Shown piece by piece: positions 13,755-40,981 of a stretch of 64,000 nt of DNA (position 1 is its first letter; each line of letters begins with the position of its first letter). The DNA lies in NCBI RefSeq assembly GCF_019968905.1, contig NZ_CP079946.1, forward strand, positions 1,922,001 to 1,986,000. The letters are read 5' to 3'. A model generated the notes under the pieces. That model was given only the letters and a program-made list of their open reading frames with translations. It made no database searches and was not told the DNA's origin. A program made the translations under genes and the position numbers. Origin of the DNA: Corallococcus sp. EGB. GTDB lineage: Bacteria; Myxococcota; Myxococcia; Myxococcales; Myxococcaceae.

Positions 13755-14642
13755 ATGATTGAAGCGGTGAAGCTCTGGAACGAGCCGAACAACAAGTCCC
13801 ACTGGGACTTCGAGCTCGACAAGGACTGGCGCATCTATTCGAGGATGGTGCGGCTGGCGGGGGAGGCGGTCCGCGCGGAGTACCCGCTCCTGCCCCGGGT
13901 GCTGGGGGGCATGTCGCCCATCGACCCGGGCTTCCTGGAGCACCTGGATCGGCAGGGCGTTCTGGACGCGGTGGACGTCGTGGCGGTGCATGGCTTCCCG
14001 CTGGACTGGAACCACTGGCCCATCGACGAATGGCCCCAGCGCATCGCGGAGGTTCGCGCGGTGTCCCGCCATCCGGTGTGGGTCACGGAGGTGGGGGTGT
14101 CCTCCTTTGGCGCGGAGGAGGTGCAGCAGTTCGGCCTCCGGCGCACCGCGGAGCTGCTGCTGGGGCGGGTGGAGCGGGTCCACTGGTACAGCCTCTATGA
14201 CCTGCCCGCCACGTGGCCCGCGACGACGCGCCACCGCGAGGCGGAAGGGTCCTCGTACTACCGGCACTTCCACATGGGGCTGCTGCGCGAGGACGGCACC
14301 CCCAAGCGCGCGCTGCGCCACTTCGCGGACTACACGCCGGAGCTGGGCATCTGTCAGTGGTTCCACTTCGAGGACCCGCGGCTGGATGATGCCGTGGCGT
14401 GGTTGAAGAAGCTGGGGGTGCGCCGCTTGCGGACGGGGTTGAGCTGGGCGGACAGCCTCCGGCCCGGAGCGGAGGAGTGGTTCGACCGGCAGATGCGCGC
14501 GCTGGAGGATTTCGACGTGACGCTCACCTACTGCTTCACCCCGGAGTCCTGCGGCATGGCCGCGCACCACACCAGTCCGCCGAACCATGTGGAGGAATAC
14601 GCGGACTTCTGCGCGAGGATGACCCGGCGCTACGCGAAGTAG
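13755..14642 (+). CDS. GH39-like TIM-barrel glycoside hydrolase
   Basis: This 295-residue protein starts at ATG 13755. The block IEAVKLWNEPNNKSHWD carries the Asn-Glu-Pro acid/base motif of clan GH-A, and HPVWVTEVGVSSFG carries the candidate nucleophile Glu. It then has WYSLYDLPATWP and a second segment resembling the start of another barrel (VAWLKKLGVRRLRTGLSWAD). It has no signal peptide. The acid/base motif lies only eight residues from the start, so either the protein is a short family member or its N-terminus is missing; no earlier in-frame start with a convincing ribosome site was seen. Its 3' end overlaps the convergent GntR gene by 13 bases. The substrate is unknown. Confidence 0.75.
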   Translation: MIEAVKLWNEPNNKSHWDFELDKDWRIYSRMVRLAGEAVRAEYPLLPRVLGGMSPIDPGFLEHLDRQGVLDAVDVVAVHGFPLDWNHWPIDEWPQRIAEVRAVSRHPVWVTEVGVSSFGAEEVQQFGLRRTAELLLGRVERVHWYSLYDLPATWPATTRHREAEGSSYYRHFHMGLLREDGTPKRALRHFADYTPELGICQWFHFEDPRLDDAVAWLKKLGVRRLRTGLSWADSLRPGAEEWFDRQMRALEDFDVTLTYCFTPESCGMAAHHTSPPNHVEEYADFCARMTRRYAK

Positions 14643-15913
14643 GCCGCCAGCAGTTCGTGGGCACGGCGGGCATGCGCACGTGCTCCGAGGGTGCAGGCAA
14701 CGGAACCCCAGAGGCGCGCGGTCCACCGGACCAGTCGGTTCTGGATGCCGTGCCGGGGGCCTCGCACCATGTGCCCCGGCTCGGGATCGCAGGTGGGGGA
14801 AGCCTCGGGCTGAACCCCATCCGTCCGAGAGTCGGCCAGGGTTCCCGGGGCCACGCCCAGCGCGGTCGTGGCACATTCTCCAAGGGTTTCGCACTCGGAT
14901 GGCCCGGTGGTGGCGGATGCCCGTCGTGGTCTGCTGTCAGGGGCCTCCGAATGGAGGTCCTGGGCAACCCCGAGCGTTTCGGCGACCTCGGTGGAAGGCG
15001 CACCGCCGCCAGGGCTCCATGCCCCGACGCCAGAAGCAGCCTCCAGTGCACGGCCCAGCTCGGCGACCGGTTCCATCCGGCCAGGGGCACGTTCCTCCAC
15101 GCGGGGAAGTGATTCCTGTGCTTCATCCTGCGTGGGGGCTGACACGGGGGCATCAATGCGGTGGGGCGCGACGCGAAGGGCCTCAAGGGATGCGGGCTCC
15201 GAGGGGGCGGGCGCGAACTGTTCGAGCAAGCGCTCATCGCAAGCCTTCATGAGCGTGGGCAGGTCCTGTTGGAGCGCCCGCGTGTCACGCTCCCTCAGGG
15301 CATCCGTCGCGCAAATGACCCACTGGCGCAGTGCTTCCCCTTCCATGAAGGACAGCAGTCGGGCCGGGCCGCCCAGGAAGGCACGATGCAGGGATTGAAC
15401 GAGGAGCACATGCCCGGGCCGCTCCGCCACCCGGGCCGCCAGCCGCAGCAGCTCGAATTCCACCTGGGCGCACTGCTCTCCCGATTCCCACTTCGCCGCG
15501 TCCCAGAGCCCGAAGCAGAGCCTCCCCAGCGAGTCCAGGTCTCGCTCGGAGGCCTTCACGCAGCAGTCGACGAGGAGCTCCACCATCACCTGCCGCCGGA
15601 GGCTGAAGTAGCCCTCCAGGAGCCACCGGGCCTCCGGCGAGCGCGCGTCATGCAGCGCCAGCCCCAGGTTCTCCAGTGTCAGCGACTCATCCAGTGGTAC
15701 CGCGCGCGTCTTGCGGCCGGAGCGCTGCACCACCAGGCCCCGCGCCGCCAGCCGCCGCAGCGCCTCGCGCATGGTGCCCCGACACACCTTCATGCGACGC
15801 GCCAACTCCGCTTCCGAGGGGAACTGCCCGCAGGGCGGCAATCGTCCCAGAGCGATATCGCGCTCCAACTCCGTCTCGACATACGCCACGAGTCCACCCC
15901 GCCCCATCTCCAT
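14630..15913 (-). CDS. GntR/FadR-type regulator with long C-terminal extension
   Basis: The protein has 427 residues from ATG 15913; ATG 15907 is equally possible. The N-terminal winged helix (LPPCGQFPSEAELARRMKVCRGTMREALRRL) is a clear GntR domain and is followed by an all-helical FadR/FCD-like region to about residue 245 (LDSLGRLCFGLWDAAKW). The last ~180 residues are low-complexity, Pro/Ala/Glu-rich and unlike a folded domain, ending in a basic patch (RLVRWTARLWGSVACTLGARAHARRAHEL). It probably responds to a fatty-acyl or small organic-acid ligand, but this cannot be read from sequence. The leader of palindromic array 1 begins 35 bases upstream of its start. Confidence 0.82.
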   Translation of the reverse strand: MEMGRGGLVAYVETELERDIALGRLPPCGQFPSEAELARRMKVCRGTMREALRRLAARGLVVQRSGRKTRAVPLDESLTLENLGLALHDARSPEARWLLEGYFSLRRQVMVELLVDCCVKASERDLDSLGRLCFGLWDAAKWESGEQCAQVEFELLRLAARVAERPGHVLLVQSLHRAFLGGPARLLSFMEGEALRQWVICATDALRERDTRALQQDLPTLMKACDERLLEQFAPAPSEPASLEALRVAPHRIDAPVSAPTQDEAQESLPRVEERAPGRMEPVAELGRALEAASGVGAWSPGGGAPSTEVAETLGVAQDLHSEAPDSRPRRASATTGPSECETLGECATTALGVAPGTLADSRTDGVQPEASPTCDPEPGHMVRGPRHGIQNRLVRWTARLWGSVACTLGARAHARRAHELLAAYFA

Positions 15914-15947
15914 CCCCTTCCTCGTCCTCGCCCCAGCATCGCCATCC

Positions 15948-16029
15948 AACCACAGGGGTCTGACATCGAAGCACGTGCCCACCGTCCGAATTGCCTACGT
16001 CACCGACGCGGCCCCGGGGCGCGGGCTGC
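15948..16029. repeat. conserved leader of palindromic array 1
   Basis: This ~80-base segment aligns with 40456-40540 before the second array. Shared blocks include GGGTCTGACAT, CCACCGTCCG, CCCCGGGGC and CGGGCTG, each in the same order and followed by GAAAAC and the first palindrome. It overlaps the promoter region of the GntR gene. Its conservation next to both arrays suggests it is a functional part of the element. Confidence 0.7.
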
Positions 16030-16569
16030 GAAAACTTGTCCGACTGTCGGACAGGTTCGAGGACTTTGACCTCATGCGGTGAAAACCGGTCTGACTGTCG
16101 GACACGTCTGGGGCACGGGTTTCAGACTGAGAAAACCAGTCCAACAGCCGGACAAGCGCGCGGCCCCTGTTGTCATGTGGCGAAGACCCATCCGACAGTC
16201 GGACAAGCGCGCGGCCCCAGGCGTCATCGGGCGAAAGTCTGTCCGACAGTCGGACAAGCTCGTGCGTCATTCCTCGTGCTGCGAAACCCCTCCAACAGCT
16301 GGACACGTTCGCAAACTCGGCCTTCGTGTCGCGCAAGCCCGTCCGAGTGTCGGACACCTTCGTCGGACACCTTCATGGGCCCGAGCGTCGTCCGGCGTAA
16401 ACCTGTCGGACAGGTTCATGGGATTGAGCATCGTGCAACTTGACCCAGTCGGACAGTCGGACAGGGGGGGCACGGGCTTGGGCATCGCGCGGCGTGGACC
16501 TGTCGGACAATCGGACAGGTTCACTGGGCGGGCGTCCTGCGGCGTAGACCTGTCGGACAGTCGGACAGG
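16030..16569. repeat. palindromic repeat array 1 (11 degenerate units, ~50-bp period)
   Basis: Eleven units begin at 16035, 16086, 16136, 16187, 16238, 16288, 16338, 16402, 16444, 16499 and 16549. Each usually starts with GAAA-rich sequence followed by a ~21-base core built from the half-site GTCGGAC. Spacing is 50-51 bases except around the truncated eighth unit (13-base core at 16402). Units 1-7 hold the half-sites as an inverted pair (GTCCGAC/GTCGGAC); units 9-11 hold them as a direct pair (GTCGGACA GTCGGACA). Spacers differ in sequence but keep length. No protein-coding interpretation is credible. Confidence 0.9.
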
Positions 16570-16764
16570 TTTTCGGAAAGCGTGCCCGGCGGGCGCTGCC
16601 CTTGGTCATGCATGGCTGTCCGCGCAATCACATGGCCGGGGTCTATTTCTGGTCCTGGCCTTGGTGGACCTTCGTGGCTACCTGCGCAGGCACAACGTCG
16701 GCGGATCACCGCTGCGCTTCGCAATGCGCGCATCCTCGCGAAGGACTTTGCGCCGAAAGGTGGG
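16570..16764. other. intergenic trailer of array 1
   Basis: The first ~30 bases (GTTTT, GAAAG and GTGCCCGGCGGGCGC) match the trailer at 40814-40840. The rest, to the stop of the next minus-strand gene, shows no convincing gene. It may hold the transcription terminator of the gene ending at 16765. Confidence 0.5.
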
Positions 16765-19206
16765 TCAACACATTGCGGGCGACCTGTTCAGGACCTCTCT
16801 GAGTCGCGTGGCGTAGCGGGCCGCGGCAGCGTGCAGCCGGGTGGCTTCTTCGGGAACCACGCTCTCCAGTGCGGCCGCGGCCAGGGTGTGATGACCGCAT
16901 TGGAAGGCGAGGTAGCAGGGCCGATAGAAGCGCAACAGCCCCGGGGACACGCGATGGCCGCAGTTGTGCTCGACGCGCGTGGCGAGCGCGGGTTCGCTCA
17001 GCTCCAGCTCCACGGCGGCGCCAACGATGTCCCAGGCCACGTCCTGACAACCCACGAGGTCGAGCCCGGCGTGATGGTCCACTGCGTCCGTCTTGAGCAC
17101 CGGACCTCCGGGAAGGATGAGCCATTCCCAGGCATGGAGCTTGTGGTCTGTCTCCACGGGCCGCGCGGCTTGTGTGAGCGCTGCCAGGTGGGGCGTCCAT
17201 GCGTCGAGGGCTCGCGCGAGTCCTTCGCCCAGGGCCTGGGCGGTGTTGTAGCGCGCCATCTCCAGCAGCCGGCACATGGAGGCTCCACGTCCGGGCTCCG
17301 GCGCGGAGAAGGAGCGTGCTCGGAAGCCGAGGTAGCGCCCCGCCTGTCCCAGTAGCGCGGTGCGGTCCTGCTCGCGTGCGACTGTCAGAGGACGAGACCG
17401 CTTCATCCAGGGCTGCACGAGGAACCCGTGGCGCAGTCCCAGGACGGGAGGCGTGAAGCCGGCTTCCGCGAGCTGACGTGCCCGGTGGACCCGGTGCTCC
17501 GCGGGCACGCCGAGGCCCGCGAATCGGAGCAGGAACGTGCCGCGCTCCGTGGTCAGCAGGTACTTGCGACGCTCCTGCTGGACGTGAACCGCTGGCCAGT
17601 CTCGTGGATCCGGGAAGAGGTGCCGACGCCATGCTCCCGCACCAATGTCCTCCAGCGGGCCGATGGCCGGCCCCGTGAGGTCTTCCACCCAGGACGCGAG
17701 TCGTGCCGCGCAGGTATCGAAGTCCGGCGGGTGGCGGTGGACGTGGGCCCAGCGTGTACGGTGATGCTCGCTGGCCATCGGACCTGGAGCGCCCGCGTGG
17801 CTGGGGAAGAAGTGCAGCCGCTCGCGGGCCATGCCCCGAACCTCCAGGAAATCCGCCACCGCGCCGAAGGAGCTGCCCGACAGCCCAGGGCCTTCGTCCA
17901 CGATGGCGACCGCGTCCGCGCTCGCCATGGCTTCCAGTTCGCGGGTGAGCCGGGGGCCTGGACACAGACGGCGCTCGAACGGAGGGCCCACGGGACGGAC
18001 CGTGACGGGCGGCATGTCCGAACCAAGGCCCGAGGCAATGATGCACGCGAGCCCGGTGCCGATGCTGCGCACGCCCACCACCCGGGTCGAACCCGCGAGC
18101 CGAGCGGACCGCACGGCCTCCAGGTACAGCTCCGGGTACAGCGCGAAGTGCGCGTAGCCCTCCGGCTCCTTGAGCGTCACACGCGAGGGTAGGGCACTTT
18201 GTTCCAGCGATTTGATCGGTGCGGACAGGGCACTTTGTTCCAGCGATTTGATCAGTGCGGACAGGGCACTCTGTTCCTGCGATTGGAGCAGTTCGGGCAG
18301 GCTGTCCCGTTCCGGGAGGGGGAGCATCGTGGGCAGGCTGCTCCGTCCCAGGGATTTGAGCAGCGCACGTAGGGCACTCCATTTCAGGGAATCGAGCAGT
18401 GCGGGCAGCGCGGGATGTTGTCGCGATTCGAACTGCGTGGGCCGTGCGTTCAATCGCAGTGATTCGGGCTGCGTGGACCGTGTGTTCAGTCGCAGTGATT
18501 CGGGCTGCGTGGGCCGTGCGTTCAATCGCAGCGATGCGAAGTGTTTGGGCCGGATGCTCCATCCCCTTGATTCGAGCCGCGTGGATGGGACGCGCTGATG
18601 CAGCGATTCGAGCTGCGCGAACCAGACGCTCCATCTTCTCGACACGGGCCGCGTGAGTCGCACGCTCCATTTTCTCGATTTGGGACGCGTGAGCCGGACG
18701 CTCCATCCCCTTGATTCGGGACGCGTGGGCAGGACTTGCTGTCGCAGCGATTCGGGCCATGGGGGTGGTGAACTCAAGCCCAGAGATTCGAACTTCGTGG
18801 CCCGTACGCCCTGTTCCGCCGGTTCGGGCAGGGTGGACCATGGGCCCTGGTTCAATGATTCGGACGGGATGGGCCGGGGGCTCTGCCCCCGGGTCTCACT
18901 CCGCTCGAGCGATGCCGTGACCTGTCGGGTGACGCCTGTCCACGATTCCGCCAGGAGCTTCGCCAGTGCCAGAGGCAGCGCGAGCCAGGATTGGCTCCCG
19001 GGACCTGCTTCGTCCTCACCCGCGGCCTCCGCGTCCGCATCGAGCAGACCCTGCGCGAGCACGCTCGCTTCAATGAACAGGGTCACCAGCTCCGCGTGCC
19101 ATTCGAGCCCCGGAGGCAGCGTGTCCAGCCGCCGCAGGCGGACTTTCAGCGCTCCGAGGACTTCCGCGGGCGGCAGCGTTCGCGGGTGGTCGCCGTAGAC
19201 CAGCAT
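16765..19206 (-). CDS. PRTase-like plus phosphotransferase-like protein with repetitive linker
   Basis: This 813-residue protein starts at ATG 19206, six bases after the phosphatase stop. Residues 1-100 form a helical N-terminal domain. Residues ~117-342 consist of degenerate 12-14-residue repeats (PESLRLN, SLEQSAL types). Residues ~350-510 contain AIVDEGPGLSGSS (434-446), the PRPP-binding loop pattern of type I phosphoribosyltransferases, after a GTGLACII segment. Residues ~520-813 resemble a protein-kinase/aminoglycoside-phosphotransferase fold (KYLLTTERGTFLLRFAGLG; DHHAGLDLVGCQDVAWDIVG, with D in the metal-binding position). It probably forms a two-gene unit with the phosphatase. The function is unknown; the domain calls come from motifs only. 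Confidence 0.78.
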   Translation of the reverse strand: MLVYGDHPRTLPPAEVLGALKVRLRRLDTLPPGLEWHAELVTLFIEASVLAQGLLDADAEAAGEDEAGPGSQSWLALPLALAKLLAESWTGVTRQVTASLERSETRGQSPRPIPSESLNQGPWSTLPEPAEQGVRATKFESLGLSSPPPWPESLRQQVLPTRPESRGWSVRLTRPKSRKWSVRLTRPVSRRWSVWFAQLESLHQRVPSTRLESRGWSIRPKHFASLRLNARPTQPESLRLNTRSTQPESLRLNARPTQFESRQHPALPALLDSLKWSALRALLKSLGRSSLPTMLPLPERDSLPELLQSQEQSALSALIKSLEQSALSAPIKSLEQSALPSRVTLKEPEGYAHFALYPELYLEAVRSARLAGSTRVVGVRSIGTGLACIIASGLGSDMPPVTVRPVGPPFERRLCPGPRLTRELEAMASADAVAIVDEGPGLSGSSFGAVADFLEVRGMARERLHFFPSHAGAPGPMASEHHRTRWAHVHRHPPDFDTCAARLASWVEDLTGPAIGPLEDIGAGAWRRHLFPDPRDWPAVHVQQERRKYLLTTERGTFLLRFAGLGVPAEHRVHRARQLAEAGFTPPVLGLRHGFLVQPWMKRSRPLTVAREQDRTALLGQAGRYLGFRARSFSAPEPGRGASMCRLLEMARYNTAQALGEGLARALDAWTPHLAALTQAARPVETDHKLHAWEWLILPGGPVLKTDAVDHHAGLDLVGCQDVAWDIVGAAVELELSEPALATRVEHNCGHRVSPGLLRFYRPCYLAFQCGHHTLAAAALESVVPEEATRLHAAAARYATRLREVLNRSPAMC
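18180..18858 (-). repeat. 36-42-bp coding repeats inside the PRTase-like gene
   Basis: Within the 813-residue gene the DNA repeats with a 42-base period (for example 18196-18290 and 18440-18540) and a 36-base period near 18655-18720. Neighbouring copies are nearly identical at the DNA level. The frame is kept, giving 14- and 12-residue units. Such repeats can expand or contract by slippage, so the linker length is likely to vary between strains. Confidence 0.8.
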
Positions 19207-19211
19207 GCCAT

Positions 19212-19769
19212 TCAGCTTCCGCCCGTCGTTTCCATGCTCGCACGCAGATGCCGGTACGCGATGGTGCCCAGGGCTTCGAGCGTGGGGATCGTCCAGGCGA
19301 CGTTCGTCCTCTCGCTCACGTCTTGCATGTAGGTGATGAAGGCCTTCAGCTGCTCCGGACTGGGTGATACGCGCGGCCTCCGTGTCTTCGCCAGCTCCAG
19401 CGCTTCGAGCGGCTCCATGCCTTGATCCACCAGCACGCACAACGACAGCAGCGCGCTCCGCCCGATGCCGTGCTCGCAGTGGATGAGGACCTTCTGCCGC
19501 CTCGCAAGCCGCTCGCGCACCCATGCGACTCCGTCGTGGAGCATCTTCAGCTGGATGGCTCGCATGTCCACCGTGGGCAGGTGCAGGAACGTGATGCCGT
19601 GCTTTCGCAGCACCTGTTCGTCGTCCCGACACTCCACCCGGACATCCACCACATGACGCACGCCCAGCTTCTGGGCCAGATGCGCCGCCGCATCCATGGG
19701 ATAGCTTCCGCCCACCGCCAGCAGCGGCGTCACCCAGTCGAGGTTGAGCTCCCGCTCCTTCACGCGCAT
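19212..19769 (-). CDS. dual-specificity/tyrosine protein phosphatase
   Basis: This 185-residue cysteine-dependent phosphatase has its P-loop in LIHCEHGIGRSALL, with catalytic Cys98 and Arg104 in C-x5-R. Candidate general-acid aspartates lie at VDVR (~42) and TVDMR (~68). ATG 19769 precedes the first family residues closely. It is cytosolic and the first gene of a pair with the PRTase/phosphotransferase-like protein, which suggests a phosphorylation-dephosphorylation partnership. It is transcribed divergently from the glycan cluster; the 136-base gap at 19770-19905 should hold both promoters. Confidence 0.9.
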   Translation of the reverse strand: MRVKERELNLDWVTPLLAVGGSYPMDAAAHLAQKLGVRHVVDVRVECRDDEQVLRKHGITFLHLPTVDMRAIQLKMLHDGVAWVRERLARRQKVLIHCEHGIGRSALLSLCVLVDQGMEPLEALELAKTRRPRVSPSPEQLKAFITYMQDVSERTNVAWTIPTLEALGTIAYRHLRASMETTGGS

Positions 19770-40409: not shown

Positions 40410-40455
40410 GCAAGCCGTCAGGGGTCGGAAGCACGGAATCCCCCGCGTCACCACT

Positions 40456-40544
40456 CAACCCCACGGGTCTGACATGCGAGCGTAGGTCCACCGTCCGCGT
40501 TGCTGGCCAGTCGGGAGGCACCCCCGGGGCACGGGCTGTGAAAA
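40456..40544. repeat. conserved leader of palindromic array 2
   Basis: This segment aligns with 15948-16034 before array 1 over its whole length (blocks GGGTCTGACAT, CCACCGTCCG, CCCCGGGGC, CGGGCTG). It contains no open frame of interest. The distance from its start to the first palindrome is 89 bases, against 87 in array 1. Confidence 0.7.
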
Positions 40545-40813
40545 CCTGTCCGACAGTCGGACAGGTCCGCGGGCCCGCGACTCGGGTCGAAAACCTGTCC
40601 GACAGTCGGACAGGTCCGCAGGCCCGCGGTTCGGGTCGAAAACCTGTCCGACAGTCGGACAGGTCCGCAGGCCCACGGCTCGGGTCGAAAACCTGTCCGA
40701 CAGTCGGACAGGTCCGCAGGCCCGCGACTTGGGTTGAAAACCTGTCCGACTGTCAGACAGGTTCCGCGGGCCCGGGCTTCAGGTGGCGCAAACCTGTCCG
40801 ACAGTCGGACAGG
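40545..40813. repeat. palindromic repeat array 2 (6 units, 49-bp period)
   Basis: Six 21-base palindromes begin at 40545, 40594, 40643, 40692, 40741 and 40793. Five are identical: 10-base arms CCTGTCCGAC around a central A. The fifth has two changes (central T, CAGAC). The first four spacings are exactly 49 bases and the last is 52. The 28-base spacers are near copies of each other in units 1-4 (GTCCGC-A/G-GGCCC...TCGGGTC) and diverge in the last two. The final unit extends to AAACC...GGTTT. The arms would form strong hairpins in RNA and a dyad binding site in DNA. Confidence 0.95.
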
Positions 40814-40981
40814 TTTTGAAAGACAGTGCCCGGCGGGCGCCTCTGCTCTCGGTCCGGCCTTTGCACTGGTAGCCGCATTTGGCGTCCGCCAGCGTCGTCT
40901 CCGTTCGCGGCGGCTCCGCGGGGCTCCCCGTGGAGCATTGAGCTGGCGCCTGCCTTCTGTTGGCTGCGGGATGGGGTGGTG
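40814..40981. other. trailer of array 2 and intergenic region
   Basis: The bases to ~40840 (GTTTTGAAAG...GTGCCCGGCGGGCGC) match the trailer of array 1. The rest, up to the stop of the DUF1501 gene, contains GC-rich dyads such as CTCCGCGGGGCTCCCCGTGGAG near 40913-40935, a candidate terminator for that gene. No gene is seen. Confidence 0.5.

Follow-up and report, generated by a model that had tools for sequence, protein, structure and literature searches.

Two arrays and a GntR-family gene in the window

The DNA analysed here, referred to as the window, is a stretch of 64,000 nucleotides that covers positions 1,922,001-1,986,000 of a single-contig genome of 9.43 Mb. Genes were predicted with a simple codon-score script. 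One of them, on the reverse strand at 14630-15913, encodes a GntR-family protein (Pfam GntR, 4.9e-13) of 427 aa as called, the longest open reading frame (ORF) comprising 450 aa and extending to 15982. The region upstream of this gntR gene (15943-16036), delimited by BLAST comparison of flanks and by alignment, is a leader, designated B1, that is common to 11 arrays; it continues into the gntR 5' end, and the gene is transcribed away from the array. On the gntR strand at 15957-15965, in the 5' region of the gene, lies a TGTCAGACC element that is a candidate promoter or operator, inspection by eye having shown similar elements ahead of gntR both in this genus and in others.

Array 1 begins directly beyond the leader. 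A core search located, at 16037-16567, nine cores that differ from TGTCSGACNGTCSGACA at no more than three positions: the gntR-proximal core, TGTCCGACTGTCGGACA, at 16037-16053; cores 2 to 5 at 16088-16256 (17-mers starting at 16088, 16138, 16189 and 16240); a further core at 16340-16356; and the last three, of the direct form described below, at 16447-16567 (17-mers starting at 16447, 16501 and 16551). Reading of the sequence added two decayed units, one at approximately 16289-16305 and the other a lone TGTCGGACAGG near 16404, and the eleven cores counted in the preliminary description thereby resolve into nine and two. Core spacing is 50-54 bp, with the exception of intervals of 100 and 107 bp, each of which spans a decayed unit. 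A trailer, B2 (16568-16615), follows the last core and belongs to a cluster of eight flanks in the BLAST comparison.

Array 2 consists of a leader (40454-40546), six cores spaced 49-52 bp apart (40547-40811) and a trailer (40812-40859), the two flanks being defined by BLAST and alignment as before, and has no adjoining gntR. The leaders of the two arrays are identical at 74 of 88 aligned positions (score 53, against a best score of -15 in 400 random pairs) and the trailers at 38 of 43 (score 26, against a best of 6). The earlier proposal of a conserved leader and trailer on both arrays is thus upheld far above the random pairs, and the objection that the leader alignment might be no better than chance failed to refute it, here and in the genome-wide comparison of flanks given below. 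Array 1 is a real, defined element composed of leader, array and trailer.

Core structure and distribution across genomes

Each core contains two adjacent GTCSGAC sites, arranged either in an inverted form, GTCCGAC-N-GTCGGAC, or in a direct form, GTCGGAC-A-GTCGGAC. The core is indeed built from the 7-base GTCGGAC reported previously as a half-site, but GTCSGAC is itself palindromic about S and is, therefore, a whole site. Searching the entire genome with TGTCCGACAGTCGGACA at no more than one mismatch returned 148 matches on the forward and 130 on the reverse strand, a site often being scored on both, and none for the reversed control; a looser 15-mer at no more than two mismatches returned 340 against 98. 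The genome contains 55 core clusters with 251 cores, 18 of the clusters having a single core and the largest having 19. These clusters were drawn from regions fetched around exact core matches, so arrays without an exact core were missed.

The families recognized among the array flanks are leader A, with 15 members by BLAST clustering and 17 by alignment, leader B1 (11 flanks) and trailer B2 (eight flanks). Leaders A and B occur in both orientations, and both window arrays are of type B, a subfamily of 11. BLAST-matching pairs numbered 92 among the 110 array flanks and four among 110 control flanks taken 2 kb away. The genome-wide count suggested in the preliminary description has found a core far above chance and a leader family of 11 flanks. 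Median spacings of the arrays cluster near 38, 50, 58, 69, 82 and 92 bp, which is nominally significant. Helical phasing was considered as an explanation of these periods and is not relied on, because arrays share periods by descent and 45-bp spacings recur in two further genomes (G077 and G087).

Among 195 sampled genomes of the phylum, TGTCSGACNGTCSGACA occurs exactly in 22, including 16 of 16 genomes of the genus, at 5 to 210 copies per genus genome, figures that fragmented drafts may undercount. Core numbers are, hence, very uneven between species. Of 27 genomes of a second genus (g19), the exact motif is present only in G138, whose 12 exact cores are all of the direct form and whose flanks, in several instances, look type-A-like by eye. 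In G065, of genus g3, 11 exact cores are present (locus L011), singly scattered among those listed, together with only a weak gntR match. A literature search with three core 15-mers returned no paper containing any of them and, within titles and the openings of abstracts, no description of such arrays was found.

Association of cores with a FadR-like regulator

Nine full gntR copies are present in the genome and each adjoins a type-B array. Conversely, gntR is found at nine of the 11 B1 arrays, the exceptions being array 2 and the array of locus L047. Thirteen of the 55 clusters are located at the nine gntR genes and 42 are elsewhere.

The association extends well beyond this genome. In a first set of gntR copies (from the own genome, 14 other genus genomes and G138), a core with at most two mismatches lies upstream of each of the 24 copies whose identity is 65% or more, the nearest core being -115 to -164 from the match start, while distant copies (54% identity or less) have an upstream core in only one of 17 cases. 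A second set, composed of the matches listed for four genomes (12 from G077, eight from G087, 15 from G081 and five from G075), added 40 of 40 further copies with a core at -95 to -185 from the match start; 38 of these cores have at most two mismatches and two have three, and none of 20,000 random windows reached the two-mismatch level. With the three genes found in both sets counted once, all 61 distinct close gntR copies, from 16 genomes, are preceded by a core. In several species, the one gntR copy read has a single core upstream; the arrays therefore look like expansions. Among the g19 genomes, a close gntR, like the exact motif, is found only in G138. Over 16 genomes, the number of gntR matches, weak ones included, correlates with core counts (Spearman 0.82); in the seven least fragmented genomes the correlation is 0.47 and non-significant (p 0.29).

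G096, from another genus, has 29 gntR matches representing many dispersed genes, and the copies read there have no cores; the notion that gntR always brings cores is thereby ruled out for distant gntR. The unit shared among these loci mostly extends from about -90 to +1100-1290 (12 loci: L133-L142, L151 and L152) and resembles a single-gene mobile element.

The product of the window gntR gene comprises a FadR-like N-terminal portion of 236 aa and a C-terminal extension; a Pfam search matched the GntR domain and no C-terminal family. Its AF2 model has a pLDDT of 85, the best Foldseek match to this model in the PDB is the FadR-DNA complex 1hw1 (TM 0.68/0.70), and sequence profiles match PdhR, NanR and FadR. 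The GntR winged helix detected by Pfam and the FadR-type C-terminal fold suggested by Foldseek for the model together place the protein in the FadR subfamily. The only named relative found for its GntR domain is from Corallococcus exercitus, with 70% identity, and Corallococcus is the probable genus. A simple count gives a dN/dS of approximately 0.22-0.36 for the window gntR against the other eight copies in the genome and, judged by these sequence comparisons, the gntR copies look to be under purifying selection.

Genomic setting and insertion states

Twenty of the clusters lie between convergent genes, 23 between tandem and ten between divergent genes, while two are inside called genes. Convergent gaps accordingly house 20 of 53 intergenic clusters as compared with 16 of 145 other gaps, an approximate comparison given that some clusters share a gap and that the genes are those predicted by the simple script. 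One coding array (locus L052, 4743-5446; genome position 4,360,742) places 13 cores in frame in an NRPS gene, within the adenylation (AMP-binding) domain and just before the YTSGSTG motif; its units of 57 or 60 bp amount to 19-20 codons specifying an EPVGQSDR-like peptide, and the reading frame is open.

The site orthologous to that of array 2 exists in several states across genomes. It has gntR and cores in G087 and G079, two cores without gntR in G081, and neither gntR nor cores by eye in G078; the flanking matches nearly touch in G080, G083 and G085. The comparison excludes the larger gaps of G075, G076, G077, G082, G084 and G089. Array 2 looks like a remnant, and no clean target duplication was identified at this site. 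At the other window locus, G084 lacks the equivalent of 14650-19240 (gntR, array 1 and the next gene), its flanking matches lying about 74 bp apart. Elsewhere in the genome, at L048 (2,018,439-2,021,043), an insertion-sequence-like segment with the end CTGAAGGATCCCCTCATC splits one array in two. The trailer at L051 borders an insertion-sequence-like segment in the same manner, and a related ORF of 386 aa is present at both loci.

Replication polarity of the central base

The central base is the only asymmetric position of the inverted-form core. On the leading strand it is A in 43 arrays and T in nine, with three undecided (p 2e-6, arrays taken as independent); these numbers use a replichore boundary at 5.5 Mb that was set from the polarity itself, and placing the boundary at half the chromosome gives 41:11. 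By distance from dnaA, the gene with which this genome starts, the ratio is 32:4 within 3 Mb and 11:5 beyond. In G087 the polarity switches sign between 1.94 and 2.13 Mb, and dnaA, located afterwards, is at 2,029,624; the ratio is 23:1 (two ties) within 2.5 Mb of dnaA and 8:4 farther out. In G077, whose dnaA lies at base 90, the first 2.5 Mb gives 26:3 (four ties), the segment at 2.5-5.04 Mb is reversed at 2:7 (two ties), and the left arm gives 9:3 among the sites listed (100 of 135, to 6.89 Mb), the other 35 sites comprising, by subtraction, ten forward and 25 reverse. Because some array sites are shared between them, the three genomes are not independent tests of the polarity.

Several ordinary causes of this bias were considered and rejected. 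It is independent of gene direction, being 12:1 for clusters between tandem genes transcribed with the fork, 9:0 for those against the fork and 14:5 for convergent settings. The orientation of insertion was rejected for type A arrays, which score 14:2 in the replication frame and 8:8 in the leader frame; since the polarity is independent of leader-A orientation, it seems, for this type, to arise after insertion. For type B arrays the ratios are 8:3 in the replication frame and 3:8 in the leader frame, and the two frames are inseparable. As for a general strand skew, AT skew in the fetched loci is small (-0.08 to 0.07 by 0.5-Mb bins), and that in the spacers of near arrays is -0.18, opposite to the central-base polarity, although spacers are tandem copies and thus non-independent. 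No polarity was detected at GACWGTC outside arrays in the 0.62 Mb fetched (15:18). The type-A polarity, then, seems not to be ordinary strand bias.

Interpretation

We consider it probable, on the evidence of sequence, that the arrays are amplified operators of FadR-like GntR paralogues. The consensus given for the FadR subfamily in the available part of one study is GTM-N0-1-KAC, and the direct repeats of NanR, TGGTATAW, form an 8-letter unit (PMC4494728); three NanR dimers bind that repeat cooperatively, according to the portion available of a second study (PMC8012715). GTCSGAC, present twice per core, fits the FadR-subfamily consensus, and each core would thus consist of two operators 8 bp apart. 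The ancestral unit may have been one such core, with the centres of its two GTCSGAC operators 8 bp apart, situated some 100-180 bp upstream of gntR, bound cooperatively by the GntR protein and probably serving gntR autoregulation. Tandem multiplication of this core would then have followed in some members of the genus, and the cores found at dozens of places remote from gntR could provide additional binding sites or form a sink that titrates the regulator.

Across 253 unique cores, the two arms vary mostly independently, with complementarity close to column expectation. The pair at +-4 is C-G in 165 cores, C-C in 39 and G-G in 31, and pairing is lost at +-4, +-8 and +-9 in 34-38% of the unique cores. 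The pairs at +-3 and +-7 show a nominal covariation excess that comes from two doubly changed cores in the former and one in the latter, and a symmetric change, GGTC..GACC, appears in 11 of the 40 gntR-proximal cores of the second set, where it may represent one inherited event. Outer-arm complementarity is 5.67 within and 5.65 between arrays (6.28 in singletons), and inner-arm complementarity is 2.92 and 2.70. The independence of the arms argues, on balance, against a hairpin or structured RNA, despite the small excess at +-3 and +-7 and the symmetric cores. Among the three natures first offered for the element, a protein-binding array is accordingly favoured by the independent arms, by the core before every close gntR copy read and by the FadR-like fold, and a structured RNA source is not. 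The third, a mobile element, is partly borne out by the dispersed cores, the states differing between species at the array-2 site and the array inside a gene, but no transposition signature was recognized and no Y1 transposase was found in this genome.

Certain observations do not sit easily with operators. Most clusters (42 of 55) are away from any gntR gene, G084 has six exact cores without a close gntR, G065 has its 11 beside only a weak match, an excess between convergent genes is odd for operators, and operator binding leaves the polarity of the central base unexplained. Another protein could be the core binder. The excess between convergent genes, together with AAAACC/GGTTTT flanks, would suit tandemly amplified bidirectional intrinsic terminators (AAAACC-stem-GGTTTT); this is very improbable in light of arms whose complementarity is near expectation save at +-3 and +-7, is broken in a third or more of unique cores at three pairs and is no greater within arrays than between them to any real extent (5.67 and 5.65 for the outer arms), and of cores upstream of gntR and inside the NRPS gene. 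Selfish, dispersed REP- or MITE-like repeats, one copy of which became fixed by chance in front of gntR and was amplified along with that gene, would account for the mostly intergenic dispersal with its convergent-gene excess, for the two orientations of leaders A and B, for the differing states at the array-2 site, for the in-frame NRPS array and for the uneven core numbers. Yet neither a target duplication nor a terminal repeat was identified, a PF01797 search of the genome returned no Y1 transposase (the same search was positive in five of 14 controls), a core before each close gntR copy read is no necessary outcome of selfish spread, and the central base follows replication (14:2) while leader A orientation does not (8:8). 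We regard such an origin as unlikely. Evenly spaced units bounded by a leader and a trailer invite comparison with a CRISPR-like or structured-RNA locus, but the spacers are alike between units, the arms covary little, the window has no Rfam match at the gathering threshold and no cas domain appeared among 12 protein queries near arrays; this reading is scarcely credible, and the CRISPR resemblance, already doubted in the preliminary description, does not extend to the spacers.

The polarity admits readings of its own. An ordinary binding site would not be expected to have a central base oriented by replication near the origin. Tentatively, and as a possibility rather than a preference, the core may be a replication-polarised site in which a leading-strand A is held at an otherwise palindromic sequence, either read by the FadR-like complex or rewritten after insertion by a replication-coupled process; arrays with opposite leaders would then all point away from dnaA throughout the first 2.5-3 Mb. 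A related reading, in which the central pair is selected or written by fork direction and the arrays serve replication, segregation or repair, draws on the prevalence of leading-strand A (43:9, and 32:4 near dnaA; 23:1 in G087 and 26:3 in G077) and on a bias that is independent of gene direction, absent outside arrays and opposite to spacer AT skew. Against it, the bias weakens far from dnaA (11:5; 8:4 in G087) and is reversed (2:7) in part of G077, the type-B frames are inseparable, some array sites are common to the genomes compared, a lone base within an otherwise palindromic sequence makes a poor signal of direction, and AIMS strengthen toward the terminus, the opposite trend, as far as the available text of PMC5993296 describes them. 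We judge this reading decidedly doubtful.

Amplified operators remain our preferred reading, and the arrays constitute a real, genus-wide family of operator-like elements tied to FadR-like regulators. If it is correct, a transcription-factor operator has turned into a chromosome-wide array family, the likely binding protein is in hand, and the species extend from those with one core per gntR to those with nineteen-core arrays. Should the direction of replication truly fix the central base, that would amount to a strand signature of a new kind.

Comparison with known systems

CRISPR loci share with the arrays their regular repeats and leader; here, however, the spacers are repetitive between units rather than unique, no cas was found nearby and the cores are bipartite and degenerate. 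KOPS and AIMS are alike in the leading-strand bias of an 8-bp unit, here GTCSGACA, but only the central base is strongly oriented in the arrays and the bias is strongest near the origin (within 3 Mb of dnaA) instead of rising toward the terminus, as it does for AIMS in the part of PMC5993296 available. Rickettsia palindromic elements, as partly described in PMC10969869, likewise place a palindromic repeat in frame in a protein gene, the counterpart here being the 13 cores of the adenylation domain; this is one clear coding case, and it involves an array instead of a single insert. REP/BIME sequences are characterized, in the portion available of PMC3733652, as small palindromic repeats that are often clustered and located mostly between unidirectional and convergent genes, all of which holds for the cores. 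They differ in that no Y1 (RAYT) transposase was found in this genome, that no GTAG or CGTC tag was seen by eye, that arm covariation is slight (a nominal excess at two pairs, alongside symmetric GGTC..GACC cores) and that the cores are linked to gntR.

The FadR/NanR regulators offer a further comparison. In their case, the present family is set apart by arrays that reach 19 cores, by dozens of scattered clusters, by gntR matches numbering as many as 16 in a genome of the genus and by a C-terminal extension, whereas the FadR-like modelled fold, the fit of GTC-N-GAC to GTM-N-KAC, the location of the site upstream of the regulator gene and tandem 8-bp units comparable to the TGGTATAW repeats of NanR are held in common.
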